Positions 21,455 through 37,853 of a stretch of DNA of 53,085 bases are shown piece after piece (position 1 is the first letter of the stretch; every line of letters starts with the position of its first letter). This DNA is from Betaproteobacteria bacterium (lineage in GTDB: Bacteria > Pseudomonadota > Gammaproteobacteria > Burkholderiales > SG8-39): the NCBI GenBank assembly GCA_016868105.1, contig VGIA01000004.1, positions 1 through 53,085 on the forward strand. Reading direction: 5' to 3'. The notes under the pieces are model-generated. The model had not been told where the DNA came from. It saw nothing but the letters and a program-made list of their open reading frames with translations, and did no database searches. Position numbers and translations under genes: made by a program.

Positions 21455-22731
21455 GCGGTCGGCGCGGCGCGCTCCAGCTCCAGCGCCGCGCCCGCTGCGG
21501 CCAGCCGGCCGACCACGCCGTAGGCGTAGAAGCGGTTGGGCGGCGCATCGCACGATGCGCGCGGGTCGGGCAGGGTGCAGGATTCGGCGAAGGCGAGCGG
21601 CACGAAGTGCATGCCGGGGGCGTTCAGGTTGTCCTCGGCGCCGCGTGCGCCGTGCACGCGGTAGAAGCCGCCGATGACGTGCTGGCCGATCATGTAGACC
21701 ACCGGCTCGGCGACCTTGTCCTCGATGCGCTCGACGGTGTGCACGCCCTCCTGGATGATGACGTTGCTCACCACCAGGCCTTCCTTCACCACCGCCATCT
21801 TGTTGCGCTGCTTGCGGTTGAGGTCGCGCACCTCGCTTGCGTCGCGCACCATCATCACGCCCATGCCGTAGGTGCCGGCGTCGGCCTTGACCGCGACGTA
21901 GGGCGTGTCCCGGATACCGTACTCCAGGTACTTGATGCGGATCTTCTCCAGCAGCATGGAGACGTTCGAGGCGAGGCACTCCTCGCCGGCGCGCGCCTGG
22001 AAGTCGATCTCGCCGCACTGCGCGTGGTAGGGGTTCACCAGCCAGGGGTCGATTCTGAGCAGCTGCGCGAAGTCCGCCGCGACCTCGTCGTAGGCGTGGA
22101 AATGCCGCGACTTGGTGCGCAGCGCCCAGCCCGCGTGCAGCGGCGGCAGCAGCACCTGCCCGCTGAGGTCGCGCAGGATCTCCGGAATGCCGGACGAGAG
22201 GTCGTTGTTGAGCAGGATGGCGCAGGGGTCGAACCCCTCCAGCCCGAGCCGCGATCCGGCGCGCTTGAGCGGCTCGACCACCAGCTTCTTGCCGCCCGCG
22301 GTCGCCAGCTCGGTGGGCGCGGTGATCTCCGGGTTGAGGCTGCCCAGGCGCACCTCCAGCCCGGTCTGGCGCAGGATGGTCGCCAGCACCGCGACGTTCT
22401 CCAGGTACCAGCGGTTGCGGGTGTGGTTCTCCGGGATGAGCAGCAGGCTCCTCGCTTCGGGGCACAGGCGATCGATGAGCGAGGTCGCCGCCTGCACCGC
22501 GAGCGGGATGAGGGCCGCGTTCAGGTTGTTGAAGCCGCCCGGGAAGAGATTGGTGTCCACCGGCGCCAGCTTGAAGCCGGAATTGCGCAGGTCCACCGAG
22601 GTGTAGAACGGGGACTCGTGCGCCTGCCAGCGCAGGCGGAACCAGCGCTCGATGGCGCTGGAGCCCTCCAGGATCCGCTGCTCCAGCTCGAGCAGCGGGC
22701 CGTGCAGGGCGGTGGTGAGATGCGGAACCAA
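21451..22731 (-). CDS. gshA: Glutamate-cysteine ligase (betaproteobacterial type)
   Basis: This enzyme makes gamma-glutamylcysteine, the first step of glutathione synthesis. It has 426 residues, of the type found in Betaproteobacteria rather than the E. coli form. Landmarks are YTSVDLRNSGFKLAPVDTNLFPGGFNNL, SLLLIPENHTRNRWYLENV, YVAVKADAGTYGMGVMMV and IIQEGVHTVERI. It is the first gene of gshA-gshB-EIIA-ptsH-ptsI, with coupled overlaps. The cytochrome c gene just upstream ends nine bases before its start, so transcription may begin further up. Confidence 0.95.
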   Translation of the reverse strand: MVPHLTTALHGPLLELEQRILEGSSAIERWFRLRWQAHESPFYTSVDLRNSGFKLAPVDTNLFPGGFNNLNAALIPLAVQAATSLIDRLCPEARSLLLIPENHTRNRWYLENVAVLATILRQTGLEVRLGSLNPEITAPTELATAGGKKLVVEPLKRAGSRLGLEGFDPCAILLNNDLSSGIPEILRDLSGQVLLPPLHAGWALRTKSRHFHAYDEVAADFAQLLRIDPWLVNPYHAQCGEIDFQARAGEECLASNVSMLLEKIRIKYLEYGIRDTPYVAVKADAGTYGMGVMMVRDASEVRDLNRKQRNKMAVVKEGLVVSNVIIQEGVHTVERIEDKVAEPVVYMIGQHVIGGFYRVHGARGAEDNLNAPGMHFVPLAFAESCTLPDPRASCDAPPNRFYAYGVVGRLAAAGAALELERAAPTA

Positions 22732-22739
22732 GCCCGGGC

Positions 22740-23276
22740 TTATTTCTTGGCGGCGGGCTTGGCGGCGCCTCGGTCCGGGGCGGCCGCGGGCTCCTTCAGG
22801 TTGCCGCCAGCCTGGTTGGCCATGTGGATGATGGCGCGCGTGAGTTCCAGGTCGGTCGCCTCTGCGGCGCCCGCCCGCGGCGGCATGGCGCCCTTGCCGG
22901 CGATCACCGCCTTCAGCATCTCGGGCAGGCCGCGCTTGATGGCCGGCGCCCAGGCGGCCTGGTCGCCCAGCTTGGGCGCGTTGGCGACGCCGGCGGTGTG
23001 GCAGCCAGCGCAGACCGTCTTCACCAGTTCCTCGCCGCTGCGCTGGGCCGCGCCGGCGGCCGGGCCGGCAGCGCCGAACTCGAGGCGCCCCACAGGCTGG
23101 ATGCGGGCGGCGACCGCCTCGGGCGTCATGGCGCCGGGGTCCGCTTTCGGCTTGTTGGTCACCAGGTTCACGATCATGATGATGCCGAAGATCGACACCA
23201 CCAACGACAACACCACGACCGTGATCAGCTGCTGCCGCGTCTTGATGAAGGAGGAATGTTTATCGTGCTCGGCCAT
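22740..23276 (-). CDS. Membrane-anchored cytochrome c5-like protein
   Basis: This 178-residue class I cytochrome c has an N-terminal membrane anchor (LITVVVLSLVVSIFGIIMIVNLV, about residues 16-40). It has one haem site CAGCH (VKTVCAGCHTAGVANAPKLG), a distal-ligand region GAMPPRAGAAEATDLEL, and an Ala/Lys/Pro tail. It would carry electrons on the periplasmic face of the inner membrane, possibly to an oxidase. The ATG at 23274-23276 has AGGGGG seven bases upstream, which decides the start over an in-frame extension that would cross toward the tRNA gene. It is probably co-transcribed with gshA. Confidence 0.92.
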   Translation of the reverse strand: MAEHDKHSSFIKTRQQLITVVVLSLVVSIFGIIMIVNLVTNKPKADPGAMTPEAVAARIQPVGRLEFGAAGPAAGAAQRSGEELVKTVCAGCHTAGVANAPKLGDQAAWAPAIKRGLPEMLKAVIAGKGAMPPRAGAAEATDLELTRAIIHMANQAGGNLKEPAAAPDRGAAKPAAKK

Positions 23277-23337
23277 GCGGTCGCCCCCTGGGCGCTGCTG
23301 CTGGTAAAATGCTGATTTTAGCGCCACTTCCAGCGCA

Positions 23338-23414
23338 GCGCCCGTAGCTCAGCGGATCAGAGTATTGGCCTCCGAAGCCAAGGGTCGTGGGTTCGAATCC
23401 CGCCGGGCGCGCCA
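23338..23414 (+). tRNA. tRNA-Arg (anticodon CCG)
   Basis: A complete cloverleaf is readable: acceptor GCGCCCG pairs with CGGGCGC, the anticodon stem is TTGGC/GCCAA with loop CTCCGAA (anticodon CCG at 23372-23374), and the T-arm contains GGTTCGAATCC. The discriminator G is followed by an encoded CCA. A short T-run follows. It reads codon CGG. It marks the left edge of the accessory segment, and tRNA 3' ends are common integration targets. Confidence 0.97.
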
Positions 23415-23982
23415 CTTTTTCAGGCTTGCGCGCTTTGGCAGGTGGCCATGGACGCGAAGCCCTGATGCGCGGGGGATCGCCGTCCCGAGACCCCGTTACA
23501 CGATCGCAGGCCGCGCCGCGGGGCATTGATCACTTGTGCGCCTTTCCTTGGCGCCGCGCCTGCGCGCATGCGCGGTGCCATGGATACCGGCGAGTGCCTG
23601 CGGGTCATGCTCCTTCGCCCGGGGGGCTCGCGCAAAGGGGCGCCAGGCAAATAAAAATTTCCGCCCCTAGGCTGCATTTATCTCCAGCATAATCAAGGGC
23701 TAATCAACCTTCGCCAGCAGCTCGACGTAGCGATCTCGAGGATTCTTGACAAAATATTAAGGGCATCCAACACTGCCTGTGTTTTCCGCTGCCCGCAGAA
23801 AAAACAAGGCCGGGGCAGGCGTGGGTGAGCGAAACAACCAGCAGTGTAGTAGGCAAGCAAGTGCCCGGAAAAATCTGCCCGGCCGGGTTCGAGCAACATT
23901 GAAGGCGGTCGGCGCACGCGGCAGGGCGGACCGGCGCCGGTATTAGCCTGAGCACGAAGTAAACAGAAAGGAGGAGCTACAT
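23415..23982. other. 568-base gap between tRNA-Arg and the YeiH-type gene; no gene recognised
   Basis: No convincing gene is seen. GC drops noticeably from about 23640. A TTGACA lies at 23746-23751 reading right, but the 17-bp-spaced hexamer AACACT is a poor -10, so the promoter is uncertain. On the minus strand a 17-codon string ends VKNPRDRYVELLAKVD with a stop at 23700-23702; it looks like the natural C-terminus of a lost gene but I cannot name it. TGTTTTC...GAAAAAACA (about 23778-23806) can form a weak hairpin. No integrase and no repeat of the tRNA end were found by eye. Confidence 0.5.
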
Positions 23983-25500
23983 ATGGCTGCGCAAAAATGG
24001 CGTACCGAAGACTGGATCGCGGTCTATCTCGGCGGGGTGATCATCGCGGTCATCATTGCCGCCTTCAGCTGGAAACTCTTCGACTTGCGCGATGTCGTGT
24101 CCACCTTCCGGTGGACCACCGACGCCCAGATCGCGCAGAGCACGCCGGGCTGGATCAGCGCCCTCGACACCGTGATCAAGGATGCCACGGCCAAGGATCA
24201 GAAAGCGATACTGAGCCCAGCCACGGCGCTCAGGGAAGCACTGCAAAAAGCAGACCGGAAAGCGATCGACAAAGCCGGCCGTGCACTGGAAAAAGTCGGC
24301 GGCCGGTCGGTCGCGGGCGCGCTGGGCCGGGAGATACGCGGGCATGCCGGCTCCGAGGTCTCGAAGGTGTTCGCCTGGGACAACATCTCCAAGGTCCTCT
24401 ACGTGGGGATCGCCTGGCTCATCGTCGCGGCCATCGGATTCAAGGTGCTGGGCGGAAAGGTGGGCGCGTTCATCGTGGGCTTTCCGGTGGTCTTTCTCCT
24501 CGCCTGGCTGTCGCGGTGGCTGGCGGGCAACGGGATATTCATAGACTGGGGCATCGAGTACGTGTTGTTCGCGCTGTTCGTGGGACTGCTGATCAGCAAC
24601 ACGATCGGCACCCCCGACTGGCTCAAGCCGGCCGTGCAGACCGAGTACTACATCAAGACCGGGCTGGTGATCCTGGGGGCCGGACTGCTGTTCCTGGAGA
24701 TATTGCAAGCCGGCGCTTTGGGGATCATCCAGGCGGTCCTGGTGGTGTTCGTCGTCTGGTACGCCTGCTTCTGGATGTGCCGGAAACTCCGGGTCGACGA
24801 TGACTTCGCCGCGATCCTTTCCTCGGGGGTCGCGATTTGCGGTGTCTCGGCCGCTATCGCCACCTGCGGCGCGATCCAGGGCGACAAGAAGAAACTCTCG
24901 TACGTCACCTCGCTGGTGCTGATCGTCGCCGTGCCGATGATGGTAATCATGCCGTGGGTCGTGAAGGCGCTCGAGATCCCGGACCTCGTGGCCGGAGCCT
25001 GGATCGGCGGCACTCTCGATACCAGCGCCTCGGTGGTTGCCGCGGGCGCGTTGATCAGCGATGCCGCCATGAAAACGGGCGTGATCGTGAAATTTTCGCA
25101 GAACGCGCTGATCGGCGTGGCGGCCTTCATCCTCGTGATCTGGTGGACCATGAAGGCGGGCGCGACCACCGGCGAGCGGCCGAGCGCCGGCATCATCTGG
25201 GAGCGATTTCCCAAGTTCGTGCTGGGCTTCCTCGTGGCCTCCGCCATTTTCTCGTTCTTCCTGCCCGACGACGTGGTGAGAGGCACCCGGTCCGCGCTGA
25301 CCGAACTTCGCACGTGGTGGTTCGCGCTGGCGTTCGTGTGCATCGGGCTGGAGACCCGCTTCGTCGAGCTCGCGGGCATGGAAGGCGGTCGTCCGGCGCT
25401 GGCGTTCATCGCGGCACAGGCCCTGAATGTCTTCTGGACGCTGCTGCTGGCCTACCTGCTCTTTGGCGGGTACCTCTTCCCCGTGCCCGATATCAAGTAG
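23983..25500 (+). CDS. YeiH/UPF0324 family transporter (putative sulfate exporter family), N-terminally extended
   Basis: This 505-residue membrane protein has a C-terminal ~350 residues matching the UPF0324 (YeiH) family: GLLISNTIGTPDWLKPAVQTEYYIKTGLVILGAGLLF, ILSSGVAICGVSAAIAT and GAWIGGTLDTSASVVAAGAL. Ordinary members are about 340-350 residues. Here an extra N-terminal part carries one membrane helix (about 12-30) and a ~100-residue helical, charged soluble segment (DTVIKDATAKDQKAIL...KAGRALEKVGG). A strong AGGAGG sits eight bases before the ATG. The family is often labelled a sulfate or sulfite/cysteate exporter, but the substrate is not established. Base composition is lower in GC than the flanking chromosome. 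Confidence 0.85.
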   Translation: MAAQKWRTEDWIAVYLGGVIIAVIIAAFSWKLFDLRDVVSTFRWTTDAQIAQSTPGWISALDTVIKDATAKDQKAILSPATALREALQKADRKAIDKAGRALEKVGGRSVAGALGREIRGHAGSEVSKVFAWDNISKVLYVGIAWLIVAAIGFKVLGGKVGAFIVGFPVVFLLAWLSRWLAGNGIFIDWGIEYVLFALFVGLLISNTIGTPDWLKPAVQTEYYIKTGLVILGAGLLFLEILQAGALGIIQAVLVVFVVWYACFWMCRKLRVDDDFAAILSSGVAICGVSAAIATCGAIQGDKKKLSYVTSLVLIVAVPMMVIMPWVVKALEIPDLVAGAWIGGTLDTSASVVAAGALISDAAMKTGVIVKFSQNALIGVAAFILVIWWTMKAGATTGERPSAGIIWERFPKFVLGFLVASAIFSFFLPDDVVRGTRSALTELRTWWFALAFVCIGLETRFVELAGMEGGRPALAFIAAQALNVFWTLLLAYLLFGGYLFPVPDIK

Positions 25501-25566
25501 GCATCCGGGGTGCGCAACCGCCCGGCTCCTCCGGGCGGAGCCCCCCGCCGGGTTTCGGAATCGCGG

Positions 25567-25593
25567 GCCCCGCGGAAACGCGGGGCTTTTTTT
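25567..25593 (+). terminator. Intrinsic terminator after the YeiH-type gene
   Basis: A perfect 8-bp stem GCCCCGCG/CGCGGGGC closes a GAAA tetraloop and is followed by seven T residues (25587-25593). It is a textbook rho-independent terminator reading right, and also separates this gene from the oxidase cluster converging from the other side. Confidence 0.92.
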
Positions 25594-25628
25594 CGCTCTG
25601 GCCCGGTGCTCGGGTACGTGAAGAGGGC

Positions 25629-25982
25629 TTAGGATCTCGGCCCGAAGAATATGCCCCGCGTAATGAAGGTGTAGTCGCCTTCGAGCGCCCCGATGCCCAA
25701 AAGTACCAGCAACAGCAGCGGCGGGAGCACGATGGCATACACCAGGGCCAGCCGCTCCCAGATCATGTGCATGAAAACGGCAACGATCAACCCCGCCTTC
25801 AAAAACATGAAGATGACGATCAGGGACCACCTGAGGTAGCCCTGGAAGTGGAAGTAATCAACCAGATAAGAGAACACGCTGAGAACAAACAGCAATCCCC
25901 AGATCCACAGATAAACGCTAATCGGATGTTGTTGTTGTCCTTTTGCGTGCGCCGTGTGTTGTTGTCCTTCTGCGTGCACCAT
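25629..25982 (-). CDS. Cytochrome c oxidase subunit IV (small prokaryotic type)
   Basis: This 117-residue protein has a short His/Gln-rich N-terminus and three membrane helices. The middle segment FMFLKAGLIVAVFMHMIWERLALVYAIVLPPLLLL is the signature of the COX4/CyoD-like small subunit. It is the last gene of the oxidase cluster, with its start eight bases after the subunit III gene ends. The ATG at 25980-25982 is preceded by TAGGGGG, which decides the start over an upstream in-frame extension. The subunit aids assembly and stability and has no metal sites. Confidence 0.88.
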   Translation of the reverse strand: MVHAEGQQHTAHAKGQQQHPISVYLWIWGLLFVLSVFSYLVDYFHFQGYLRWSLIVIFMFLKAGLIVAVFMHMIWERLALVYAIVLPPLLLLVLLGIGALEGDYTFITRGIFFGPRS

Positions 25983-25990
25983 GTTGCCCC

Positions 25991-26713
25991 CTACCAAAGA
26001 TAGAAGAACGCAAAGATGAATACCCACACCAGATCGACGAAGTGCCAGTACAGGCCCATGACTTCGACCATTTCGTAGTTACCCTTCCGGCCGGTCAGGA
26101 AGCCTGGCGCCTCGCGATCCAGATCTCCGCGCAGCACTTTTATCGCCACGATGATCAGGAAAACCACCCCGACTGAGACGTGGAATCCATGGAAGCCGGT
26201 GATCATGAAAAAGGACGAGCCGAACTGCGCCGCGCCCATCGGGTTGCCCCAAGGACGCACCCCGTCCGCGATCAGCTTGCTCCATTCAAAGGCCTGCATG
26301 CCGACGAAGGTGGCGCCAAAAAATGCGGTCACCAGCAACAGGATCGCCGACATTTTCTTGTTTCTTTCATATCCGTACTTGACGGCCATGGCCATCGTCC
26401 CGCTGCTGCTGATCAGGATGAAGGTCATGATGGCGATCAGGATGAGGGGAATGCTCTCGCCGAAGAAGGTCAAGGCGAAAACCTCGCTGACGTTCGGCCA
26501 GGGCACGGTGGTGGACGCCCGCACCGTCATGTACGAGATCAGAAAACTGCCGAAGATGAAAGTATCGCTGAGGAGGAAGATCCACATCATCGCCTTGCCC
26601 CAGGAAACATTCTTGAACGCCCGCTGGTCCGAGGACCAGTCGGCGACGATGCCTGGCAAGCCTTCAGGCAACGGGAGGGCTTCTCCCGTACCCGTGCGCA
26701 CGGGTTGAGTCAT
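25991..26713 (-). CDS. ctaE: Cytochrome c oxidase subunit III (first copy)
   Basis: This membrane subunit of an A-type haem-copper oxidase supports proton uptake and stability. It has 240 residues and about five to seven helices. Conserved blocks are WGKAMMWIFLLSDTFIFGSFLISYM near the N-terminus, AFEWSKLI, ITGFHGFHVSVGVVFLI and the C-terminal GLYWHFVDLVWVFIFAFFYLW. These are full-strength COX3 motifs. It lies between a second, divergent subunit III gene and subunit IV on the minus strand, in a compact cluster with 8-15 base gaps. Confidence 0.94.
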   Translation of the reverse strand: MTQPVRTGTGEALPLPEGLPGIVADWSSDQRAFKNVSWGKAMMWIFLLSDTFIFGSFLISYMTVRASTTVPWPNVSEVFALTFFGESIPLILIAIMTFILISSSGTMAMAVKYGYERNKKMSAILLLVTAFFGATFVGMQAFEWSKLIADGVRPWGNPMGAAQFGSSFFMITGFHGFHVSVGVVFLIIVAIKVLRGDLDREAPGFLTGRKGNYEMVEVMGLYWHFVDLVWVFIFAFFYLW

Positions 26714-26728
26714 GGACTTCGATCCCCT

Positions 26729-27391
26729 TTATGTAGACAACAGCAGAGCGAACAAAACCAGCCAGACCAGAAGCAAGTAGTGCCAGTACAGCGCGCACAG
26801 CCCCACGCTCAAGCGTGCCGCGCCGAGTGCGACGCCGCGCTGCACTCCGGCGGTGGTCCTGCCCCAGGCCACCAGGCCGCCCAACAGGTGCAGACCGTGC
26901 AGCGCGGTGAGCACGTAAAAGAAATCGTTGGCCGGGTTAGCCCCCAGGAAATAACCCGAGGCGTGCAGTTGTTGCCAGACCACGAGCTGCCCGGCGAGGA
27001 AGGCAACGGTGAGAACGCCCGCGGCAAACAGGCCGGTTCGCACGCCGTCTTTCTGTCCCCGGTTCGCCGCAGCCCGCGTCCATTCCATGACTGCGCTGGT
27101 CAGGATCAGCACGCCTGTGTTCAGCCACAGCAGGCCTGGTTCCGGCAAGGGGTTCCAGTCCCCCAGTTTCATGCGCATGGCATAGGCGCTGATAAAGAGC
27201 GCAAACAGGGACGTCACCACGGCAAGTAATACCCAAAGCCCGAGCTTCAGCGTCGGCTGGACCAATACGCTCCCATGAACGTCTTCGGTCGAGCCCCCCG
27301 CCACCCAGGGCTGGACATTTATGGATTGTTTTACCAGCCACCATACAACGACGGCCAGTAACAGAGCCAAGAATACTAATGTAATCGTCAC
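26729..27391 (-). CDS. Second, divergent cytochrome c oxidase subunit III-like protein
   Basis: This 220-residue protein is built on the COX3 plan: ALHGLHLLGGLVAWGR corresponds to the HGxH block of subunit III, and LCALYWHYLLLVWLVLFALLL to its C-terminal YWHFVD block. It lacks the Asp and Phe of the ordinary motif. I use the GTG at 27389-27391 (MTITLVFLALLLAVVVWWLV), preceded by GGGGA. An ATG at 27445 in the same frame has no ribosome site and would put a strong hairpin inside the gene. Two unlike subunit III genes side by side occur in some caa3-like clusters. Its separate role is unknown. Confidence 0.82.
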   Translation of the reverse strand: MTITLVFLALLLAVVVWWLVKQSINVQPWVAGGSTEDVHGSVLVQPTLKLGLWVLLAVVTSLFALFISAYAMRMKLGDWNPLPEPGLLWLNTGVLILTSAVMEWTRAAANRGQKDGVRTGLFAAGVLTVAFLAGQLVVWQQLHASGYFLGANPANDFFYVLTALHGLHLLGGLVAWGRTTAGVQRGVALGAARLSVGLCALYWHYLLLVWLVLFALLLST

Positions 27392-27408
27392 GTCTTGGTT
27401 CCCCGGGA

Positions 27409-27434
27409 GTCTGTCGGACTTGAGTCGGACAGAC
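27409..27434 (-). other. Hairpin between oxidase subunit I and the second subunit III gene
   Basis: GTCTGTCGGACT and GTCGGACAGAC form an 11-bp stem with one G-G mismatch and a tiny loop. It has no U-run, so mRNA processing or 3'-end protection between ctaD and the following gene is more likely than termination. Confidence 0.5.
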
Positions 27435-27466
27435 CTCTTATGCACGAAAACACTGGAGGATTCCGG

Positions 27467-29245
27467 CTAGGCCCTGTCCCTGGCACCGGTGGCTGCCTCG
27501 GGCGGCGGAACGTTTTGCGGGATGAAGTCCTGCGGAGCACCCGGCACGCTGAAATCGTAGGCCCACCGATAAACCACCGGCAGCTCGCGGCCAAAGTTGC
27601 CGTGCGTCGGCGGGGTGTGCGGAGTCTGCCACTCCAGCGTGGTGGCCTCCCAGGGGTTGCCACCCGATGGCTTGCCCTTGAAATAGCTCCGGACCAGGTT
27701 GTAGAAAAACACCATCTGGGCGGCGCCCACGATCAGGGCTGCTATGGTGATACCGGCGTTCATGCTCTGCACCGACTCCGGGATGAAGTCCGTGCCTCCA
27801 ATTGCATAATACCGGCGTGGCACGCCCAGAAAGCCCAGGTAGTGCATCGGATAGTAGATCGCGTAGGACCCGACGAAGGTGAACCAGAAGTGAACCTTGC
27901 CCAGGGTATCGTCCAGCATGCGCCCGGTGATCTTGGGGTACCAGTGATAGATCGCCCCGAATACAGCCAGGACCGGGGCTATGGCCATCACCATATGAAA
28001 GTGGGCGACCACGAACATGGTGTCCGAAAGCGGCACATCCACGGTCACGTTGCCCAGGAACAGGCCCGTCAATCCGCCGTTGATGAAGGTGAAGATGAAC
28101 CCGATCGCAAACAGCATCGGGACGTTGAGGTGGATGTTGCCGCGCCACAGCGTCAGCACCCAGTTGTAGACCTTGATGGCCGTGGGAACTGCGATGATCA
28201 GCGTGGTGGTGGCGAAAAAGAAGCCGAAGTACGGGTTCATGCCGCTCACGTACATGTGGTGCGCCCACACGATGAAGCTCAGGCCGCCGATGGCCACGAT
28301 CGCCCACACCATCATCCGATAGCCAAAGATGTTTTTTCGCGCATGCACACTGAGCAGGTCGGAGACAATGCCGAAGGCGGGCAGGGCGACGATGTAGACC
28401 TCGGGATGACCGAAAAACCAGAACAGGTGTTGAAACAACACCGGGCTGCCGCCCGCGTATTCAAGCTTCTGCCCCATCGAGACGATGGCGGGCATGAAGA
28501 AACTCGTGCCCAGCGTCCGGTCCAGTATCATCATGATGGCGCTGACGAACAGCGCGGGGAAGGCCAGCAGCGCCAGGATGGTGGCCATGAAAATGCCCCA
28601 TACCGTCAAGGGCAGCCGCATCAGCGTCATTCCCCGTGTGCGCGCCTGCAACACCGTCACCACATAGTTCAACCCGCCCATGGTGAAGCCGATGATGAAG
28701 ACCGCCAGGGAAACGAGCATCAAGATAATTCCCCAGCTCTCCCCCGGGGTACCCTGCAGGATCGCCTGGGGCGGGTACAGGGTCCAGCCGGCGCCCGTGG
28801 CCCCGCCGGGAACGAAGAAACTCGCGACCAGTAACAGCACGGCGACAAGATAGACCCAGTAACTCAACATGTTGACGTAGGGGAAAACCATGTCCCGGGC
28901 GCCGATCATCAGCGGGATCAGGTAGTTGCCAAACGCACCCAGGAACAGCGCGGTGAGCAGGTAGATCACCATGATCATGCCGTGCTGGGTGACAAACTGA
29001 AGGTAGTTGCTGGGGTCGATGAAGGAGAAGGTGTTCGGAAACCCCAGTTGCAGCCGGATCAGCCACGAGAACACCAGCGCCACCACCCCGATACTGATCG
29101 CCGTGATCGCGTACTGGATGGCGATGACTTTGGCGTCCTGGGAAAAGACATATTTACCCAACCAGGTTTTGGGGTGGTAAAGCTCCACTTCCCGGACTTC
29201 GGCGGGCGGGGCGAAAGCCGATGCGTCATGCGCAACGTACGACAT
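27467..29245 (-). CDS. ctaD: Cytochrome c oxidase subunit I (A-type haem-copper oxidase)
   Basis: This catalytic membrane subunit reduces O2 to water and pumps protons. It has 592 residues and 12 or more helices. The metal ligands are intact: QHGMIMVIYLLTALFLGAF (low-spin haem His), FWFFGHPEVYIVALPAFGI (CuB His cross-linked to Tyr, with the A1-type Glu), WAHHMYVSGM (CuB His-His) and VVAHFHMVMA (haem ligands). The GHPEVY motif places it in the A1 subclass. Start ATG with GGAAA upstream. It lies 41 bases after subunit II. GC content is visibly lower than the surrounding chromosome, and no haem a synthesis or Cu-assembly genes are in the window. Confidence 0.96.
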   Translation of the reverse strand: MSYVAHDASAFAPPAEVREVELYHPKTWLGKYVFSQDAKVIAIQYAITAISIGVVALVFSWLIRLQLGFPNTFSFIDPSNYLQFVTQHGMIMVIYLLTALFLGAFGNYLIPLMIGARDMVFPYVNMLSYWVYLVAVLLLVASFFVPGGATGAGWTLYPPQAILQGTPGESWGIILMLVSLAVFIIGFTMGGLNYVVTVLQARTRGMTLMRLPLTVWGIFMATILALLAFPALFVSAIMMILDRTLGTSFFMPAIVSMGQKLEYAGGSPVLFQHLFWFFGHPEVYIVALPAFGIVSDLLSVHARKNIFGYRMMVWAIVAIGGLSFIVWAHHMYVSGMNPYFGFFFATTTLIIAVPTAIKVYNWVLTLWRGNIHLNVPMLFAIGFIFTFINGGLTGLFLGNVTVDVPLSDTMFVVAHFHMVMAIAPVLAVFGAIYHWYPKITGRMLDDTLGKVHFWFTFVGSYAIYYPMHYLGFLGVPRRYYAIGGTDFIPESVQSMNAGITIAALIVGAAQMVFFYNLVRSYFKGKPSGGNPWEATTLEWQTPHTPPTHGNFGRELPVVYRWAYDFSVPGAPQDFIPQNVPPPEAATGARDRA

Positions 29246-29286
29246 GGTAATTTCCTTTTCGCTAATTACTTATTCGAGCGGGCCGG

Positions 29287-30642
29287 TCATCGCAAGGTAT
29301 TGATGTAGGCAACGAGGTCATTGACTGCCTGGTCGTCGCGCAGAATCGCGGCCATCAATGCCATCTGGACCCCGTACTGGTCCTGCGGATGGGTGCCGCG
29401 AATGCCCTGTTTGTAATTTTTCAATTGAGTTACCAGATACCAATCACTCATACCCGCCAGCCCGGGGGCATTCATTGCCTGTACGCCACGCCCATCCGCA
29501 CCGTGACAGGCGCCGCAGGTCACGTAGCGCTGTTTACCGTTGCTCGCGTTGCCCTTCACTGTGGCCGGGGCAGGACGATCCGGCAGCGTCTTGATATAAG
29601 CGGCGACGTTGTCGATCGCGGCGTCATCCACCAGGGTCGCCGCCATCGGCACCATCACTTTACCGAAAACATCCTTGTCGTGCGTGCCTCGGGCACCTTG
29701 CTTGTAATATTTCAATTGCCGCTTCAGGTACCAGTCTCCTTGCCCGCTCAATTTCGGCGCATGCAGCGCGGGGGTGCCCTCGCCTTGCGCGCCATGGCAC
29801 GCGGCACAGGCTGCGTAGAGTGGCTTGCCCGCGGCAGCATCGCCGGCTGCTTGCGCCGAGGTTTGCGCGAACGTCGGATGGCGGCTCAACCAGGCCTGAA
29901 ACGCGGCCTCTTCCTCCACCACCACGCTGCCGCGCATGGCGAAATGCCCGATGCCGCATAATTCCTGGCAGAGGAGGTCGAATTTCCCGGCCCGGGTTGG
30001 GGTTAACCAGATATAGGTGACCAGGCCCGGCACCAGATCCATTTTGACCCGGAACTGCGCCACGGTGAAGTTGTGCAGGACGTCTTTGGAGCGGAGCAAC
30101 ATTTTCACCGGCTTGCCGATGGGGAGATGCAGCTCCTGGCTCGATATCAGGATGTCGTCGCGTCCGTTGGGATCGTCCGGATTCATGCCAAACGGGTTTT
30201 TATCGCTGACGTAGCGGGCATCCACGGTACCCAGTACGCCATCCTTCCCGGGGAAGCGATAGCTCCAGTGCCACTGCTGGCCCACGGCCTCAACGACCGG
30301 CGCATCGTCCGGGACGTCGACGAATTTCGCCCATACATATAAACCGGGGGCCAACATGGCAACGATGCCCACCGTGGTCAGTCCGGTGAGCCACCATTCC
30401 AGCTTCTTGTTCTCGGGTTCGTACTCCGCCCGTCTGTCCTTGCGGTAACGGTAGCGGATCACGGCCCAAGCCATGAACAAATTGACGGCAACGAAGACGA
30501 TCCCCGTGACCCAGAACGTGATGCTGATCGTGTCGTCGATCGTGGTCCAGTTGGAGGCGATCGGCGTAAAATACCACGGGCTCAGGAGATGAAACAGGAC
30601 AGAGCCAACGATCAACAATATCAATACGATTGCTACGACCAT
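29287..30642 (-). CDS. ctaC: Cytochrome c oxidase subunit II fused to two cytochrome c domains
   Basis: This is the electron-entry subunit of a caa3-like oxidase, 451 residues long. It has two N-terminal helices (about 1-20 and 40-62), a further hydrophobic stretch near 86-104, and a periplasmic cupredoxin domain with a complete CuA site: His190, Cys225, Glu227, Cys229, His233, Met236. Two cytochrome c modules follow, with haem sites CAACH (279-283) and CGACH (376-380). The two modules share DWYL..QLK.YKQG.RGTH, so they arose by tandem duplication. The ATG at 30640-30642 overlaps the end of the decayed coxB frame by ten bases. Two c-type haems on one subunit II is unusual. Confidence 0.93.
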   Translation of the reverse strand: MVVAIVLILLIVGSVLFHLLSPWYFTPIASNWTTIDDTISITFWVTGIVFVAVNLFMAWAVIRYRYRKDRRAEYEPENKKLEWWLTGLTTVGIVAMLAPGLYVWAKFVDVPDDAPVVEAVGQQWHWSYRFPGKDGVLGTVDARYVSDKNPFGMNPDDPNGRDDILISSQELHLPIGKPVKMLLRSKDVLHNFTVAQFRVKMDLVPGLVTYIWLTPTRAGKFDLLCQELCGIGHFAMRGSVVVEEEAAFQAWLSRHPTFAQTSAQAAGDAAAGKPLYAACAACHGAQGEGTPALHAPKLSGQGDWYLKRQLKYYKQGARGTHDKDVFGKVMVPMAATLVDDAAIDNVAAYIKTLPDRPAPATVKGNASNGKQRYVTCGACHGADGRGVQAMNAPGLAGMSDWYLVTQLKNYKQGIRGTHPQDQYGVQMALMAAILRDDQAVNDLVAYINTLR

Positions 30643-31202
30643 AGCGGTGGTCCCGGTTGATTGGACAAAATCGCGCGTCTTGTTGCCCCCGATGTTGCGC
30701 GTGCAGATTCGAGCAGGTAGTGCCGGCCCGTGGGAGCGCGGTTCCCGACCCGGCCGCGCGGCGCGGCCAGCTCGCTGCAAAAGCCGATGCCTTCCTGCGC
30801 GCAGTCGTAGCCCCACTTCGACTGATCAGCGGCGGCCTTGATCTTGACCTCGGGGCTGGGGGAGTCTGACATCGCGATTACGGTCTTGATCGCGGGGTAG
30901 GCCGTGCCGATGAGGATCAGGAGCGGGATGACGGCCCAGACGATTTCCACGGTGATGTTCTCGTGGAACGGCTCGGCCTGGCGGCCGGCCGACTTGCGGT
31001 GCCTGATGATGGCGCAGGTCATCGCGCCGAACACCACGATGAAAATCAAGACGATGGCCCACGTGATCAAGGCGTGAAGGTCGTAGATCTGCCGCGCGAT
31101 GATGGATTGCGGCTCTGGCAGGTGGTACTGGCCGGCGAGCGCTGAATCCGCCACCAGACACGCGTTGGCGCCGGTGAACGGTCGAAAACACCTCCGGATC
31201 AT
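30633..31202 (-). pseudogene. Truncated and decayed resident coxB (ordinary oxidase subunit II)
   Basis: The frame begins with a normal subunit II N-terminus: YHLPEPQSIIARQIYDLHAL, then the two membrane helices around FHENITVEIVWAVIPLLILIGTAYP. It continues into KWGYDCAQEGIGF..ELAAPRGRVGNRAPTGRHYLLE, matching the family up to about residue 165. After that the sequence loses all resemblance (SARATSGATRRAILSNQ). The CuA domain is absent, and the conserved QWKW has become QSKW. The break at about 30690 is where the acquired oxidase cluster begins. The start, leader and probable promoter (ATATAGT near 31309) survive. Confidence 0.85.
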
Positions 31203-31377
31203 GCGACTCTCACCTGAATATCGGTACGGTTCCGCGCTCGGCTGGTTAGACGCGCTTGGTTGTTAAGAGTTTCCTTGATATCCGCGTCGAGCGGCGGCGA
31301 CTATATCACAGGCACCCGCGCCAGGGCAACAAAAAACCGTGCCCAAACCCGAGCCTGATGCGCAGTTCGGCGCGGCC

Positions 31378-31710
31378 TCAGGCCAGCGGCTCCAGATCGG
31401 GTAGCGCAGCGACATCCGCGCTGTCGATTTCATGCCGGAACGCGATGAGGGCAAGCCGCGGCGCGCCGATGCGCTCCTTGAGCGCGTGCACGCTCTGGTC
31501 GGCGACCGCCATCTCCGGGTCGATGTAGTTGGCGATCCAGCCGGCGAGCGTGACCCCGGGCGCCCGCACCGCCTTTGCGGTGAGCAACGCATGGTTCAGG
31601 CAGCCGGGCCGCATCCCCAGGACCGGAATTACCGGCAGGCCGAGGCGCTGCGCGAGCTGGCCCAAGTCCGCATCCTTGCCGAGGGGCACGCGAAAACCGC
31701 TGGGACTCTA
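31378..31710 (-). pseudogene. 5'-truncated dethiobiotin synthetase (bioD) remnant
   Basis: The frame ending at 31378 reads GFRVPLGKDADLGQLAQRLG, then LPVIPVLGMRPGCLNHALLTAKAVRA and PGVTLAGWIANYIDPEM, the C-terminal half of dethiobiotin synthetase. The N-terminal half, with the P-loop GTDTxxGKT, is missing. Upstream of GFRVPL the frame hits a TAG and the similarity stops at about 31710, just before the TRAP operon begins. A GTG at 31689 could start translation, but the product would lack the ATP site, so this is a dead gene. It marks a rearrangement border. Confidence 0.85.
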
Positions 31711-31775
31711 CTGATGGCAAATAAGGGCGGGTTTCGTTATCCTCCGGGCTCTTTCCAACCCAACGGGAGCATCGC

Positions 31776-32798
31776 ATGCACACCGTTCGTCGACACCTGG
31801 GCCGCCTGGCCCTTGCCGCCCTCGCCACCGTCACGCTCGCCTCCGGCGCCCTGGCGCAGGTCGAGTGGAAGTTCAACAACAGCTACGCGCCGACCCGGCC
31901 TGAGTCGGCACATATCCGCGCCTTCGCCGCCGACGTCGAAAAGCGCACCGGCGGCAAGATGAAGATCTCGGTCGCCGAGGGCGGCGCGATGGGCCTGAAG
32001 GACGCCGACGCGCTGCGCTTCATGCAGGCCGGCACGCCCGAGCTGGGCTTCATCTGGCCGCCCTTCCTGGGCCGCGACGCGCCGGCGCTGGCCAACCTGT
32101 ACGTGTACGGCCTGGTGTCCAGCGCCGAGGACCACCAGAAGGCGCTGCCGGCGCTCAAGGTCGTGCTCAAGGAAGGCATCGCGAAGTGGAACGTCGAGGT
32201 GCCGGGCTTCCTGGGCTTCTCGATCGTCGACGCCTCGCTGTTTTGCCGCGAGCCGGTGCGCACGCTCGACGAGCTCAAGCGCAAGAAACTGCGCGTGGGC
32301 AGCCGCGAGCAGGTCGAGACCTTCAAGCGCCTGGGCGTGGCGGCGCAAATCGTGCCGCAAAACGAGCTGTACGCCGCGCTTCAGACCGGCGTCGTCGATT
32401 GCGCGTTGTACGCGCCGCGCTTCGCCAACTCGATCTCGCTGCAGGAGGTGGCCAAGCACGTCACGCCGACGGGCTTTCCGTTCCCGCCGGCGCCCTACGC
32501 GCTGCTGGCGCACAAGGCCAAGTGGGCGGCGCTGCCGGCGGACCTGAAAAAGGGCTTCGGCGACGCGGTGACCGAGCTCGAGCGCGTCAGCTTCAACTTC
32601 GGCGAGGACGTCACCACCGAAAAGGCCGCGCGTGAGAGGCTGACCAGCCAGGGCGTGACCTTCCACCCGCTGATGCCGGCGGCCGACCGCGCCGCGCTCA
32701 AGCGTTCGGCGCTCGAGACCTGGGACGTGCTGGCCAAGGAAGCGGGTGGCGACGCCGTGGCCTACCGCCAGCGCATCCTCGACGCGCTCCCGAAGTGA
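31776..32798 (+). CDS. dctP: TRAP transporter substrate-binding protein, DctP family
   Basis: This periplasmic binding protein captures an organic anion for a TRAP (Na+- or H+-driven) importer. It has 340 residues, with a Sec signal peptide (MHTVRRHLGRLALAALATVT, cut after SGALAQ at about 27-28). The DctP fold follows: WKFNNSYAPTRPESAHIRAFAADVEKRTGGKMKISV, then REPVRTLDELKRKKLRVGSREQVETFKRLGV, containing the usual LDELKGKKLRV-like block. The ATG has GGGAG eight bases upstream. It is the first gene of a four-gene operon with dctQ, dctM and an M24 peptidase. The ligand is not evident. Confidence 0.94.
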   Translation: MHTVRRHLGRLALAALATVTLASGALAQVEWKFNNSYAPTRPESAHIRAFAADVEKRTGGKMKISVAEGGAMGLKDADALRFMQAGTPELGFIWPPFLGRDAPALANLYVYGLVSSAEDHQKALPALKVVLKEGIAKWNVEVPGFLGFSIVDASLFCREPVRTLDELKRKKLRVGSREQVETFKRLGVAAQIVPQNELYAALQTGVVDCALYAPRFANSISLQEVAKHVTPTGFPFPPAPYALLAHKAKWAALPADLKKGFGDAVTELERVSFNFGEDVTTEKAARERLTSQGVTFHPLMPAADRAALKRSALETWDVLAKEAGGDAVAYRQRILDALPK

Positions 32799-33340
32799 GC
32801 GTGGGCAGGGCCGGGCCAGCAGCTGGCCCGGCCCATGTCGGCAGCGTCGGGGCGTGGATCGAACGCGGCCTGTTGCTGCTCTCAGGTGTGGCGGCGGTGC
32901 TCGGCGCCGTCGCGCTGGCGGGCCTGTTTGTCGTGGTGCTGGTGGCCGTGGTGATGCGCTACGCCTGGGGCCGGCCCTACGCCGGCAGCGAGGAACTGGC
33001 CGGCCTGCTGATGACGGTGGCGGTGTTCGCGTTGCTGCCGGTGACGCTGCTGCACGAGCAGCACATCCGCGTCAGCGTCGTCGCCGACCGGCTGGTGGGT
33101 TGGCGGCGGCGCGCGACCTTCCTGCTCGGGCAGGCCGTGCTGCTCGCCTTCATCGGCGCCTTCTTGTGGCAGGCCTGGGCCATCGCCGCCTTCACGGCGC
33201 AACTCAAGCTGCTGGCCGAGCAGTCGCAACTGCCGCTGGCGCCCTTCCTCTACGTGAGCCTGTTCGCGATGGGGCTGGCCGGCCTGGTCGCAGCCTGGCG
33301 CACGGTCGCGCCCCGTGCGCCGACAGGCCACGCACCATGA
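32795..33340 (+). CDS. dctQ: TRAP transporter small permease, DctQ family
   Basis: This 181-residue membrane protein has four helices, matching the DctQ subunit. Landmarks are VVVLVAVVMRYAWGRPYAGSEELAGLLMTVAVFALLP and the E-QHIRVSVVADRL segment, a DctQ hallmark. It starts at a GTG that overlaps the dctP TGA and ends overlapping dctM by four bases, so the three transporter genes are translationally coupled. The last ~25 residues form a basic, Pro-rich tail. Confidence 0.93.
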   Translation: MSVGRAGPAAGPAHVGSVGAWIERGLLLLSGVAAVLGAVALAGLFVVVLVAVVMRYAWGRPYAGSEELAGLLMTVAVFALLPVTLLHEQHIRVSVVADRLVGWRRRATFLLGQAVLLAFIGAFLWQAWAIAAFTAQLKLLAEQSQLPLAPFLYVSLFAMGLAGLVAAWRTVAPRAPTGHAP

Positions 33341-34626
33341 CCGCGTCGCTGCTGGGCGGGTTGCTCGTCTTCAACGTGCTGAGCGGCGCGGTGCTGGGCG
33401 CCGCGCTAGGCCTCGCCGGACTGGCGATCCTGGAGTTTGGCGCCGGCGGCGCGCAGCGCCTGGGCGTTCAGGCGGTGTTCAACGTGCTGGGCGAGTTCAC
33501 GCTCACCGCGATTCCGCTGTTCATGCTGCTGGGCGAGGTGCTGGTGGCCAGCGGCCTGGCGCGTGGCGTGTACCAGGCGCTCTCGCCGCTGTTCGCGCGC
33601 CTGCGCGGCGGCCTGCTGCACACCAACATCGCGGTGTGCACGGTGTTCGGGGCGGTGAGCGGCTCGTCGATGTCGGTCTCGGCGGCCGTCGGCGCCGTGG
33701 CCTACCCCGAGCTGTCGCGGCGCGGCTACGAGCGGCGCTTGGTCGTCGGCTCGCTGGCAGGTGGCGGCACGCTGGGCCTCTTGATCCCGCCCAGCCTGTC
33801 GCTGCTGATTTATGGTGCGCTCACCGACACCTCGATCGGCAAGCTGTTCCTGGCCGGGGTCGTGCCCGGGTTGCTGATGGCGGCGCTCTTCATGCTCTAC
33901 ATCGAGTGGGCGACGCGCCGCCTGCCCGGGCTGGCGCCGCGCGTGGCGCCCGAGCCCTGGGGCCCGACGCTGCGCGCGGCGCTGTCGGTCTGGCCCATCG
34001 TGCTGCTCATCGTGGCCGTGCTGGGCAGCCTCTTTGCCGGGCTCGCCACGCCCACCGAGTCGGCGGCGGTGGGGGCGGCGGCGGCGGCCTTGCTCGGCTT
34101 CACCCGCGGCGAGCTGACGCTGCGCGGGCTGTTCAAGGCCTTCGGCGACTCGGCGCGCGCGTTTGCCGTGGTCGCGCTGGTGTTCATCGGCGCGGTGATC
34201 CTGGCGCAATCGATCAGCCTGCTGCAACTGCCGCAGAAGATGCTGGCGGCCATCGCCGAGATGGGCTTGTCGCCGGTGCTGCTGCTGGCGACGATCGTCG
34301 TCGTCTACCTGCTGCTGGGCATGGTGTTCGACGGCCTATCGATGATGGTGATGACGCTGCCCGTCGTGTTCCCGCTGCTCACCGGCGTGGGCTACGACGC
34401 GGTCTGGCTCGGCGTGGTGGTGACCATCCTGATCGAGATCGGCATGCTCACGCCGCCGGTGGGGATGAACCTCTTCGTGCTGGTCGGCATTGCGCGGGGC
34501 GAGGTCGATCTGCCCGCCGCCGCGCAGGGTGCGGTGCCGTTCTGGGCCTTGCTGCTGCTGGGCATGCTGCTGCTGACGCTGTTCCCGGCCATCGCCACCT
34601 GGCTGCCGTCGATCTCGATGGCCTGA
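33337..34626 (+). CDS. dctM: TRAP transporter large permease, DctM family
   Basis: This is the ion-coupled transport subunit of the TRAP system, 429 residues with about 12 helices. DctM family blocks are IPLFMLLGEVLVASGLARGVYQALSPLFARLRGGLLHTNI, CTVFGAVSGSSMSVSAAVG, PPSLSLLIYGALTDTSIGKLFLAGVVPGLLM and LLGMVFDGLSMMVMTLPVVFPLL. The end is the usual GVVVTILIEIGMLTPPVGMNLFVLVGIA. The chosen ATG overlaps the dctQ stop (ATGA). Seventeen bases separate it from the M24 peptidase gene. Confidence 0.95.
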   Translation: MTASLLGGLLVFNVLSGAVLGAALGLAGLAILEFGAGGAQRLGVQAVFNVLGEFTLTAIPLFMLLGEVLVASGLARGVYQALSPLFARLRGGLLHTNIAVCTVFGAVSGSSMSVSAAVGAVAYPELSRRGYERRLVVGSLAGGGTLGLLIPPSLSLLIYGALTDTSIGKLFLAGVVPGLLMAALFMLYIEWATRRLPGLAPRVAPEPWGPTLRAALSVWPIVLLIVAVLGSLFAGLATPTESAAVGAAAAALLGFTRGELTLRGLFKAFGDSARAFAVVALVFIGAVILAQSISLLQLPQKMLAAIAEMGLSPVLLLATIVVVYLLLGMVFDGLSMMVMTLPVVFPLLTGVGYDAVWLGVVVTILIEIGMLTPPVGMNLFVLVGIARGEVDLPAAAQGAVPFWALLLLGMLLLTLFPAIATWLPSISMA

Positions 34627-34642
34627 CCAAGGGACCCCCACC

Positions 34643-35896
34643 ATGACGCCGCTGCTGCGCGAACGCGCCGAGCGCCTGATGCGCGAAGCCGACCTGGACG
34701 CGCTGGTGCTGGCCAAGCCCGAGAACTTCCAGTGGGCGACGGGCGCCTTCGGCGGGGTTGCGACCTTCTTTCGTAGGGCCGGCGCGGCGCTGGCGCTGGT
34801 GCCGCAGTCGGCTACCCAGCCGCTAGGCGCCGTGATCGCGCCGCTCTTCGCCGACGCCTTGCGCACGCGCATCGGCGCCGAGCGGGTGCGCACGCATGTC
34901 GACTGGATCGAAGCGGTGGACATCCGCGCCACGGCTGACGACAGCGACGACGCAGCGCAGGCGGTCGAGCGCGCCTGGTCGCGCCAGGGCCGGTCGCGCG
35001 ATTTCACGCGACCGGCCGCATTCGACGCCCGGGCCGCCTTCCAGGCGCTGGGCGAATTGCTGGCGCAGGACGGCCTGGGTCGCGCGTGCATCGGCCTCGA
35101 TCTGGACTTCTGGCCGGTGCTGGACCACGCCTGCCTGCGCCAGGTGCTGCCCGGCGTCGAGTGGGTGGACGCAAGCGTGACCATCGGCCGCATCCGCGCC
35201 GTGAAGTCGGCCGACGAGATCGAGCGCCTGCGCCTGGCCGCGGCGGTGGCCGAGGACGGCATGCGCGCGGCCATCGCGCAGGTGCGCGAAGGCGCCAGCC
35301 GCGAAGCCATCGCCGCGGCCTGGTCGACCGGCGTGGCCGCGGGCGCAACGGCGCGCGGAGCCCGCATCAAGGGACAGTGGGAGTACATCAGCGTCGGGCC
35401 GCTGCCCTGGCAGAGCGCGGGCGTGGTGGCGCGGCGTGGCGACGTGGTGAAGTTCGATGTGGGTTGCCTGATCGACGGCTACAGCTCGGACTGCGGCCGC
35501 ACCTTCAGCGTCGGCCCGGCGCGGCCCCGCGCGCGCCAGATCATGGCCGCGTTGCACGAAGCCTTCGAACGCGCTCTGGAGGTCCTCAGGCCCGGCTTCC
35601 CGCTGCGCGCGGTGCACGAGCAAGCGACGCAGGCCATGCGTCGCCACGGCTTCGAGCGCTTCGCGCGCGGGCATTTCGGCCACAGCCTGGGCCTGGACAC
35701 CTTCTGCGAAGTGCCGCCCTTCATCGCGGCGCAGGCCGACGATCCGATTGAGGCCGGCATGGTGCTGTCGTTCGAGACGCCCTTTTACGTCGACGGCGAG
35801 GGCGGCTTCATCATCGAGGACCAATTCACGATCACCGCGGACGGCGCGCAGGCGGCGTGGACGCTGCCGCGCGGCCTGCTCGAGCTGCCGGTGTAG
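34643..35896 (+). CDS. M24 family metallopeptidase (Xaa-Pro dipeptidase / creatinase fold)
   Basis: This is a 417-residue cytoplasmic enzyme of the pita-bread fold. The N-terminal creatinase-like domain is at about 1-185, and the catalytic domain carries all five metal ligands: Asp272 (KFDVG), Asp283 (SDCGRT), His347 (GHFGHSLGLD), Glu378 (LSFETPFY) and Glu392 (IIEDQF). It is the last gene of the TRAP operon and starts 17 bases after dctM. Such pairs suggest that the imported compound is an amide, a proline-containing dipeptide, or a compound like ectoine or creatine that is hydrolysed after uptake. The exact substrate cannot be read from sequence. Confidence 0.88.
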   Translation: MTPLLRERAERLMREADLDALVLAKPENFQWATGAFGGVATFFRRAGAALALVPQSATQPLGAVIAPLFADALRTRIGAERVRTHVDWIEAVDIRATADDSDDAAQAVERAWSRQGRSRDFTRPAAFDARAAFQALGELLAQDGLGRACIGLDLDFWPVLDHACLRQVLPGVEWVDASVTIGRIRAVKSADEIERLRLAAAVAEDGMRAAIAQVREGASREAIAAAWSTGVAAGATARGARIKGQWEYISVGPLPWQSAGVVARRGDVVKFDVGCLIDGYSSDCGRTFSVGPARPRARQIMAALHEAFERALEVLRPGFPLRAVHEQATQAMRRHGFERFARGHFGHSLGLDTFCEVPPFIAAQADDPIEAGMVLSFETPFYVDGEGGFIIEDQFTITADGAQAAWTLPRGLLELPV

Positions 35897-36291
35897 CGCG
35901 CGGCGCTCAGGGCCTGGCCGGTCGGCGCGCCCGCCGGCGGTGGCCGGACCTAGGTTGCTGAGCGGCCGCTAGTGCCACAATTGGTCAAGCACTTGGGTTT
36001 GGAGCTGTCGAACAAGGGGCTGTATGGCAAATGAGAAGTGGAGGCGAACGGGCGCCTCGTGCTGCGCGGCGCACCCGGCCCGAGGCGCCCAGTTCCGGCA
36101 GGTGCCGGCGCACGCACTGCCACAACGGGCTTGCGCGCGGCCTGCGGGCACGATAGATCGCGGGGCGAGCGGCATCGATGCGCAGACCAACGCTCCGCGC
36201 ATCCTGGTAGATGGATTCACGGCCCTGCCCGACGACATGGCGATCCGCCGGTCAACGCGGATGGGCGGCACCGGCGTTGAAGCATCGAGGG
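35897..36291 (-). mobile_element. 395-base gap with a possible IS91-type transposase N-terminal scrap
   Basis: No intact gene is present. On the minus strand, at about 36040-36160, one frame reads YRARRPRASPLWQCVRRHL then PELGASGRVRRAARGA before a stop at 35985. The YRxRxPxASPLWQC pattern resembles the N-terminal zinc-binding region of IS91-type transposases. There is no start, no catalytic Tyr domain and no terminal repeat. It lies exactly at the right border of the TRAP segment, consistent with mobile-element activity. The family match is from motif memory and is weak. Confidence 0.35.
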
Positions 36292-37176: not shown

Positions 37177-37256
37177 GGTCGGATCTCGGGCCAGGGTTGT
37201 TGGGGCGGTGGATAGAATACGCATTCCGCTGCCCATTATTCCGCCGGGACCCTTGA

Positions 37257-37853
37257 ATGAGCGCAACAGCCATCAGCCGTTTCCCGGTCCCGGACCTGAA
37301 GGACCTGCCGCCGGATATCCGCCAGCGCATCGAAGCGGTGCAGCAGAAGGCGGGGTTCGTCCCCAACGTGTTCCTGGCGCTGGCGCACCGCCCGGCCGAA
37401 TGGCGGGCGTTCGTCGCCTACCACGACGCGCTGATGGAGAAGGATCCCGGCCCCGGCGTCACGCTCACCCGCGCCGAGCGCGAAATGATCGTGGTCGCCA
37501 CCTCGGGGGCCAACCAGTGCCAGTACTGCGTGGTGGCGCACGGCGCCATCCTGCGCGTCCGGGCGAAGAATCCCCTGATCGCCGACCAGGTCGCGATCAA
37601 CCACCGCAAGGCGGACCTGGAGCCGCGCCAGCGCGCCATGCTCGACTTCGCGCTGCGGGTGGCGCTGGAATCCCACACCGTCGAAGAGGATTCGCTGCGG
37701 GCGCTGCAGGCCTACGGCTTCACCCGGGATGACGCCTGGGACATCGCCTCCATTGCCGCGTTCTTCGCCATGTCCAACCGGCTCGCCAATGCGGCGAGCA
37801 TGCGGCCGAACGACGAGTTCTACCTGATGGGGCGGGTGCCGAAGGCGAAGTAG
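37257..37853 (+). CDS. Carboxymuconolactone decarboxylase / AhpD-like peroxidase-related protein
   Basis: This 198-residue helical protein of the CMD family has the redox motif NQCQYCVVAHG (Cys88, Cys91, His95) of the AhpD-like branch, preceded by LTRAEREMIVVATSGAN. The C-terminal half has RQRAMLDFALRVAL...LRALQAYGFTRDDAWDIASIAAFFAMSNRLAN, as in uncharacterised peroxidase-related enzymes (TIGR01926-like). It probably has weak alkylhydroperoxidase activity or a redox-partner role. Its last 34 bases overlap the 3' end of the TPR gene on the other strand. Confidence 0.9.
   Translation: MSATAISRFPVPDLKDLPPDIRQRIEAVQQKAGFVPNVFLALAHRPAEWRAFVAYHDALMEKDPGPGVTLTRAEREMIVVATSGANQCQYCVVAHGAILRVRAKNPLIADQVAINHRKADLEPRQRAMLDFALRVALESHTVEEDSLRALQAYGFTRDDAWDIASIAAFFAMSNRLANAASMRPNDEFYLMGRVPKAK

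Follow-up and report, generated by a model that had tools for sequence, protein, structure and literature searches.

Here, we describe a cytochrome c oxidase operon encoded in 53,085 nucleotides of DNA from a Betaproteobacteria bacterium (assembly GCA_016868105.1, contig VGIA01000004.1, positions 1 to 53,085; hereafter the window). Immediately upstream of its subunit II gene, coxB2, lies the truncated 5' part of another subunit II gene, referred to below as the coxB stub. We consider it very probable that the window carries an acquired operon of the CoxMNOP type together with a second-hand scar, both from a donor resembling members of family f46 rather than the window's own family, f1. In the f46 lineage, the new operon would have landed at the bioC-bioD-coxB place, with the 5' part of a coxB of f46 type left in front of it. 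A block of about 25.6-31.70 kb would then have moved from an f46-like donor into the variable region by a tRNA-Arg(CCG) gene, cutting bioD. Sequence comparison supports horizontal acquisition of the operon. Displacement of the old oxidase most likely took place in the donor lineage, where it is placed by the phylogeny of the stub, by its bioD neighbor and by a near-identical scar in the f46 genome G532.

A five-gene oxidase operon behind a truncated coxB

The operon is complete and lies on the minus strand. Open reading frames (ORFs) and Pfam matches identify coxB2 (CoxM-like subunit II, 451 amino acids, 29287..30642, matching PF00116 and PF00034 in two stretches), ctaD2 (CoxN-like subunit I, 592 amino acids, 27467..29245, PF00115 with an E value of 1.1e-137), two COX3 genes matching PF00510, namely ctaE2a (CoxO-like, the first subunit III gene, 26729..27445) and ctaE2b (CoxP-like, the second, 25991..26713), and the COX4_pro gene ctaF2 (subunit IV, 25629..26027, PF03626). 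The histidine motifs of ctaD2 are intact (HPEVY at 280, HHMY at 329 and HFHMV at 415), as is the CuA motif of coxB2 (C.ELCG.GH..M), which also carries C-terminal CxxCH haem-c motifs at 279 and 376. A previous reading of this DNA from its sequence alone (the sequence-only reading) had described the cluster as caa3-like. The oxidase cluster itself is borne out by the five intact genes, but two haem-c motifs in subunit II make ccaa3 a better fit than caa3, and the operon fits the CoxMNOP (ccaa3) type of cytochrome c oxidase. The block would make a working oxidase, since the metal-site and haem-c motifs tested are intact and ctaA, ctaB and Sco are present elsewhere in the genome. The lower guanine-plus-cytosine (GC) content reported in the same reading is also found here: 0.591 for the cluster, compared with 0.684 for the whole contig and 0.69-0.71 both outside the variable stretch and in its part encoding a tripartite ATP-independent periplasmic (TRAP) transporter.

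A scan of genome contigs yielded 590 confirmed relatives. Among the best 80 loci, subunit I identity ranges from 72 to 88% and the gene order, including two subunit III genes after subunit I, is kept as far as the contigs reach; nearly all of these records are named Alpha-, Beta- or Gammaproteobacteria. Many relatives encode a small c-type cytochrome and a Sco-PCuAC fusion protein (copper delivery) 3' of ctaF2 (as in locus L033, 4446-5975). Neither gene was found behind ctaF2 at 25500-25629 in the window; there, a YeiH-family gene runs toward the operon from the other side.

The dead coxB is an open frame of 189 amino acids (30633-31202, minus strand) with a Pfam COX2_TM match at residues 25-106 and no CuA motif. 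According to the COX2_TM match, alignment and trees, codons 1-165 (30708..31202) are of f46 type and encode the leader, two membrane helices and the first part of the periplasmic loop. The stub can be aligned with intact CoxB only to about codon 165, which places the break near 30707 and agrees with the earlier description of a coxB that keeps its leader, both helices and part of its loop before breaking off. The dead frame then continues into a read-through tail ending in TAG (30633..30707, minus strand), and G532 has the same tail. Within it, a piece of about 25 bp (30680..30705, minus strand), out of frame with the stub and with identical letters in G532, tentatively resembles the coxB 3' end (codons TRN..NKT) when compared by eye with genome G530, although it is short. 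The operon's own 5' flank starts at about 30680. The ATG of coxB2 (30642-30640) and the TAG of the dead frame, ending at 30633, give the overlap of ten bases that had been noted before.

The stub and the operon point to family f46

The contig of G532 carries bioC and then bioD at full length, followed by the stub frame, of 189 codons as in the window, by coxB2 and by the beginning of ctaD2. DNA identity to window positions 29076-31700 is 94.6%, and the match stops inside bioD, which is 5'-truncated in the window. What is left of bioD is a 3' fragment (31378..31700, minus strand, PF13500/TIGR00347) encoding the C-terminal part of dethiobiotin synthase; it ends where homology to G532 ends, is probably donor DNA, and has its best match among the loci compared in f46. 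The stretch with the truncated bioD (31378-31776) adjoins a divergent TRAP transporter gene, with the cut about 76 bases from the DctP start.

The coxB2 product shares 95% of its amino acids with that of G532, a member of another family, versus 78% with that of G010, a member of the same genus. In the coxB2 tree, the window and G532 group together (support 100/99), and a grouping of the window with G010 is rejected by the approximately unbiased (AU) test (p 1.6e-5). Genes at least 78% identical to coxB2 occur in 6 of 74 f46 genomes. The stub tells the same story as the operon in that its best match outside its own genome, at 58%, is in the f46 genome G349 (399 genomes of the order, 275 with a match); matches from the same genus stand at 46% in that listing and at 43-50% in another comparison. 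In a tree of 47 rows, whose rows from outside the family comprise the closest matches to the stub together with G321 and G058, the stub groups with two f46 rows (98/93). Holding it with five rows of the genus is rejected (AU p 1.7e-4) in a test that omitted G007, whose coxB stands apart from the genus in the tree. When more f46 coxB genes were included (71 rows), the stub paired with that of G532 (100/100) and next with that of G530 (95/88), in a bootstrap that had not settled. The sequence-only reading thus holds for an acquired operon next to a dead coxB, but its view of that coxB as the resident one does not survive the stub phylogeny and the matching scar of G532.

Gene order is bioC-bioD-coxB in f46 loci, compared with bioC-coxB without bioD in the f1 loci seen. 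Because bioD also occurs close to coxB in further families of the order, gene order alone cannot name the donor. The window's flanks are only 64-70% identical to the f46 genomes G349 and G321. The matches listed for G532 include no intact coxB, and the list reached hits far weaker than an ordinary coxB; ctaD was not searched there.

The region upstream of the operon

The sequence-only reading also proposed that the old coxB promoter may drive the new oxidase. Capture of a promoter is plausible, although it would have occurred first in the donor, and it is likewise plausible that the operon lost its own upstream region. Judged by eye, the operons of G481, G483 and G408 share an upstream stretch that is partly seen in G019 and missing in the window and G532, where the operon's own 5' flank is reduced to about 38 bp of the common flank. 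With so little of this flank left, the operon would be transcribed from the imported bioD-coxB upstream region. The bases 5' of the stub's ATG resemble, by eye, those 5' of intact f46 coxB genes. A promoter-like site lies between bioD and the stub (31300..31329, minus strand; TTGCCC-18-TATAGT, with TG before the second hexamer). It is a weak hit whose second hexamer reads TACATT in G532, and the scan that found it gave 2 sites in 7 kb versus 1.6 expected from shuffles, which is no evidence by itself.

Truncated coxB genes precede related operons in two families

Genes at least 64% identical to coxB2 were found in 18 of 98 genomes of the window's family (the window counted), to which G453 adds a piece at a contig end; within the genus, 2 of 13 genomes carry one, the window and G010. 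We inspected 25 operon loci (18 of f1 and 7 of f46, leaving out G453) up to 1.5 kb upstream. A truncated coxB precedes the operon in six of them (the window, G532, G530, G517, G454 and G010), while no coxB stub was found within that distance in the other 19. These six loci show five different junctions, with only the window and G532 alike. In G530 (L334 4726-5445), the CuA part has been lost in frame, such that the helices are joined to the haem-c domain in a frame of 239 amino acids upstream of a CoxMNOP operon. In G517 (L336 9100-10000), the stub is followed by a small ctaD piece and then by the new operon, and a second CoxMNOP copy is present on contig C248. A ctaD piece also follows the stub in G454 (by eye), and G010 has a direct truncation. 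As in G532, no intact coxB was listed for G530, G454 and G010; G517 has another one. On the tree, the stub label of the five other stubs takes at least four changes, among which gain and loss are not distinguishable.

Further arrangements are found in these families. In G027 and G016, bioC is followed immediately by the operon, with no stub between them, and old and new oxidase genes stand side by side in G016, G487, G019, G408, G481, G483, G013, G030, G461, G514 and G058. In G013 (L288 1136-1405), fragments of a broken ctaB separate the old ctaE from the new coxB2. G013 had also been the first to suggest a deletion between tandem oxidases, which is possible in other lineages and was rejected for the site in the window. 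A broader account would have CoxMNOP operons repeatedly displacing the native cox genes at bio-cox-rpoH while keeping the coxB promoter and its translated 5' part, with the module traveling between families as a functional unit, as in the window; we regard this as rather unlikely.

The stub evolves without detectable constraint

If the new oxidase depended on the stub, as a leader peptide or a small membrane protein, the stub would be kept by selection. The stubs that precede 6 of the 25 inspected operons keep both helices, and in both the window and G532 the stub frame is open and overlaps coxB2, as such a role would have it. However, the 19 operons without a stub nearby speak against a need for it, and so do the substitutions. 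Between the window and G532, the stub has 24 nonsynonymous and 5 synonymous changes, a ratio of nonsynonymous to synonymous rates (dN/dS) of about 1.6 that does not differ from neutral (p 0.40). In contrast, coxB2 has 22 of each, with a dN/dS of 0.29 (p 1e-4), and the counts of the two genes differ (Fisher p 0.006). By part, dN/dS is 2.9 in the leader, 0.72 in the helices (10 changes) and 3.2 in the loop, with few changes each. Selection to hold the frame open is needless as an explanation, since 17% of 400 neutral simulations, which ignored indels, produced no stop; we therefore rejected it. A retained function of the stub is improbable in our view, and the comparison supports a dead coxB, apparently free of purifying selection, over a selected protein.

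The operon sits in a variable region beside tRNA-Arg

The tRNA-Arg(CCG) gene (23338..23414, plus strand) marks the left edge of a region that varies between strains. We compared its surroundings in nine relatives, eight of the same genus and G016 of the family. In all nine, variable content begins at the 3' end of the tRNA, where similarity to the window stops (23414-23421). Similarity resumes at 36290-36293 or 37257-37263 in seven of the nine; no resumption was seen in G002, whose contig ends, and in G010, within the stretch compared. The stop at tRNA-Arg and the resumption beyond it place the operon in a strain-variable region (23415..36289), which also holds the YeiH-family gene, the scar, the TRAP transporter genes and an M24 peptidase gene. 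The nearest relative, G008, is 93% identical in DNA to the window's flanks (20713-23416 and 36290-37576). At the same site, it carries 7 kb of other genes (L253 1290-8333), encoding a methylmalonyl-CoA mutase, a CoA-transferase/MeaB protein and a TctC-type receptor.

These flanks bear on the prospect of a chimeric contig, in which assembly fused a piece of the cox locus of a G532-like organism to the host contig. The genome is a draft in 190 contigs, and the block is bounded by two sharp joins about 6 kb apart and is lower in GC, all of which a chimera could produce. On the other hand, host backbone on both sides makes the foreign block internal to the contig, G532 itself, at 5% divergence, is excluded as the contaminant, and bioD is cut, without continuing as it does in G532. 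We judge such an artifact a little less probable still than a function of the stub.

The native oxidase locus lies elsewhere

The sequence-only reading had proposed looking for an intact ordinary operon at this very site in close relatives. The ordinary locus is instead found elsewhere, by bioC. An ordinary coxB with all or most of ctaD is present in 5 of 13 genomes of the genus (G002, G003, G004, G007 and G012), in an operon that runs whole to rpoH in G012 and G003, reaches Sco at the contig end in G002 and is split over two contigs in G004. In the window's genome, the native flanks, bioC and ctaB-Sco-rpoH, are on other contigs, C73 ending inside bioC and C154 inside ctaB, while the cluster is on C4 beside tRNA-Arg and not between them. 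A DNA search of the assembly with the G012 locus did not find the bioC-ctaB interval and gave only short matches to the window's cox genes and at unrelated places. Searches of the whole assembly found no ctaG, and no COX1 or COX2_TM match besides those of the window, but the gap between C73 and C154 is where the resident locus falls. G004, G005, G006, G009 and G011 likewise have contig breaks in or close to bioC-coxB-ctaD.

In G010, an analogous operon has replaced the resident one in place (bioC-coxB stub-operon-ctaB-rpoH), and its stub groups with resident-type coxB. Although this precedent and the lack of another COX1 in the assembly would suit an entry of the window's cluster at the resident cox locus, breaking the resident coxB, that event is contradicted by the stub's phylogeny and the same scar in G532, and with the native flanks on other contigs and the cluster at a variable tRNA-Arg site we grant it only the slightest chance. 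The cox locus of G011 may also be rearranged: frames upstream of its ctaB (L262 1-1052) had no match among eight loci compared, and one of them resembles an acetyltransferase by eye.

Genes of relatives were named by eye from translations, followed by Pfam/NCBIfam searches on examples from L041, L033, L186, L332, L185 and L130. These bore out CoxB, CtaG, COX3, SURF1, CtaB, Sco, RpoH, BioC, BioD, an amidase and the Sco-PCuAC fusion. For BioC, the G532 protein scores above the model's curated cut-off, whereas the L033 protein and the piece on C73 fall short of it; comF gave a match below its cut-off. The names grxC, secB, gpsA, trmL, ftsX and ftsE were given by eye only.

Discussion

Several points weigh against the import of a ready-made scar from an f46-like donor. 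The contig of G532 ends in ctaD2, such that the donor match covers coxB2 and no more than 55 codons at the start of ctaD2, and the rest of the operon is assumed to have come with them; the actual donor is unsampled, G532 differing by 5% in DNA, and both genomes are fragmented drafts. The f46 genomes matched to the window's flanks were G349 and G321, rather than G532 itself. The stub trees rest on 146 columns, in addition to the unsettled bootstrap of the larger one. The constraint seen in coxB2 is not repeated at the start of ctaD2 (56 codons, with 4 nonsynonymous changes and 1 synonymous one, dN/dS 1.2), where the changes are too few to tell. Finally, although the variable content runs from the 3' end of the tRNA onward, as in tRNA-associated genomic islands, the window differs from these in that no direct repeat of at least 10 bases of 23338-23430 was found up to 38000 and in that a scan of part of the ORFs found no integrase.

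Operons of the coxMNOP type are known from Bradyrhizobium; the paper on Pseudomonas pseudoalcaligenes KF707 (PMC5492768) cites Bott et al. 1992. Bradyrhizobium coxMNOP loci have the same gene order as the window and 77-80% subunit I identity. For two rhizobial loci in the coxB2 tree, the best match spans only the first 266-269 residues, which leaves the double haem-c tail unseen in them. In KF707, CoxMNOP is a ccaa3 oxidase encoded by an accessory oxidase operon (PMC5492768). As far as that account describes it, the KF707 operon is like the window's in having a CuA-bearing subunit II with two haem-c motifs at its C-terminus, clustered with subunit I and further cox genes (PMC5492768). Compared with what is given there, the window's operon is unlike it in having a foreign coxB stub in front, in adjoining tRNA-Arg and in that no second oxidase was seen in the assembly.

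Gene displacement in situ amounts to xenologous operon replacement. G010 and G454 are like this, with the new operon and a coxB stub between native bioC and ctaB, and in G530 and G532 the 5' side is alike, up to where their contigs stop. The window is unlike it, as its scar appears to have been imported ready-made, away from the native flanks. In a search of the literature by title, we found no paper on the coxB-stub/CoxMNOP junction.

A broken gene beside an acquired operon is easily mistaken for what is left of the host's copy. In the window, the stub phylogeny and G532, a sampled relative of the donor, indicate that the broken gene was imported as well, so that the displacement would belong to another lineage. 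The six stub-operon loci, with their five junctions, form a natural series in which to ask whether operon replacement favors keeping the old promoter.

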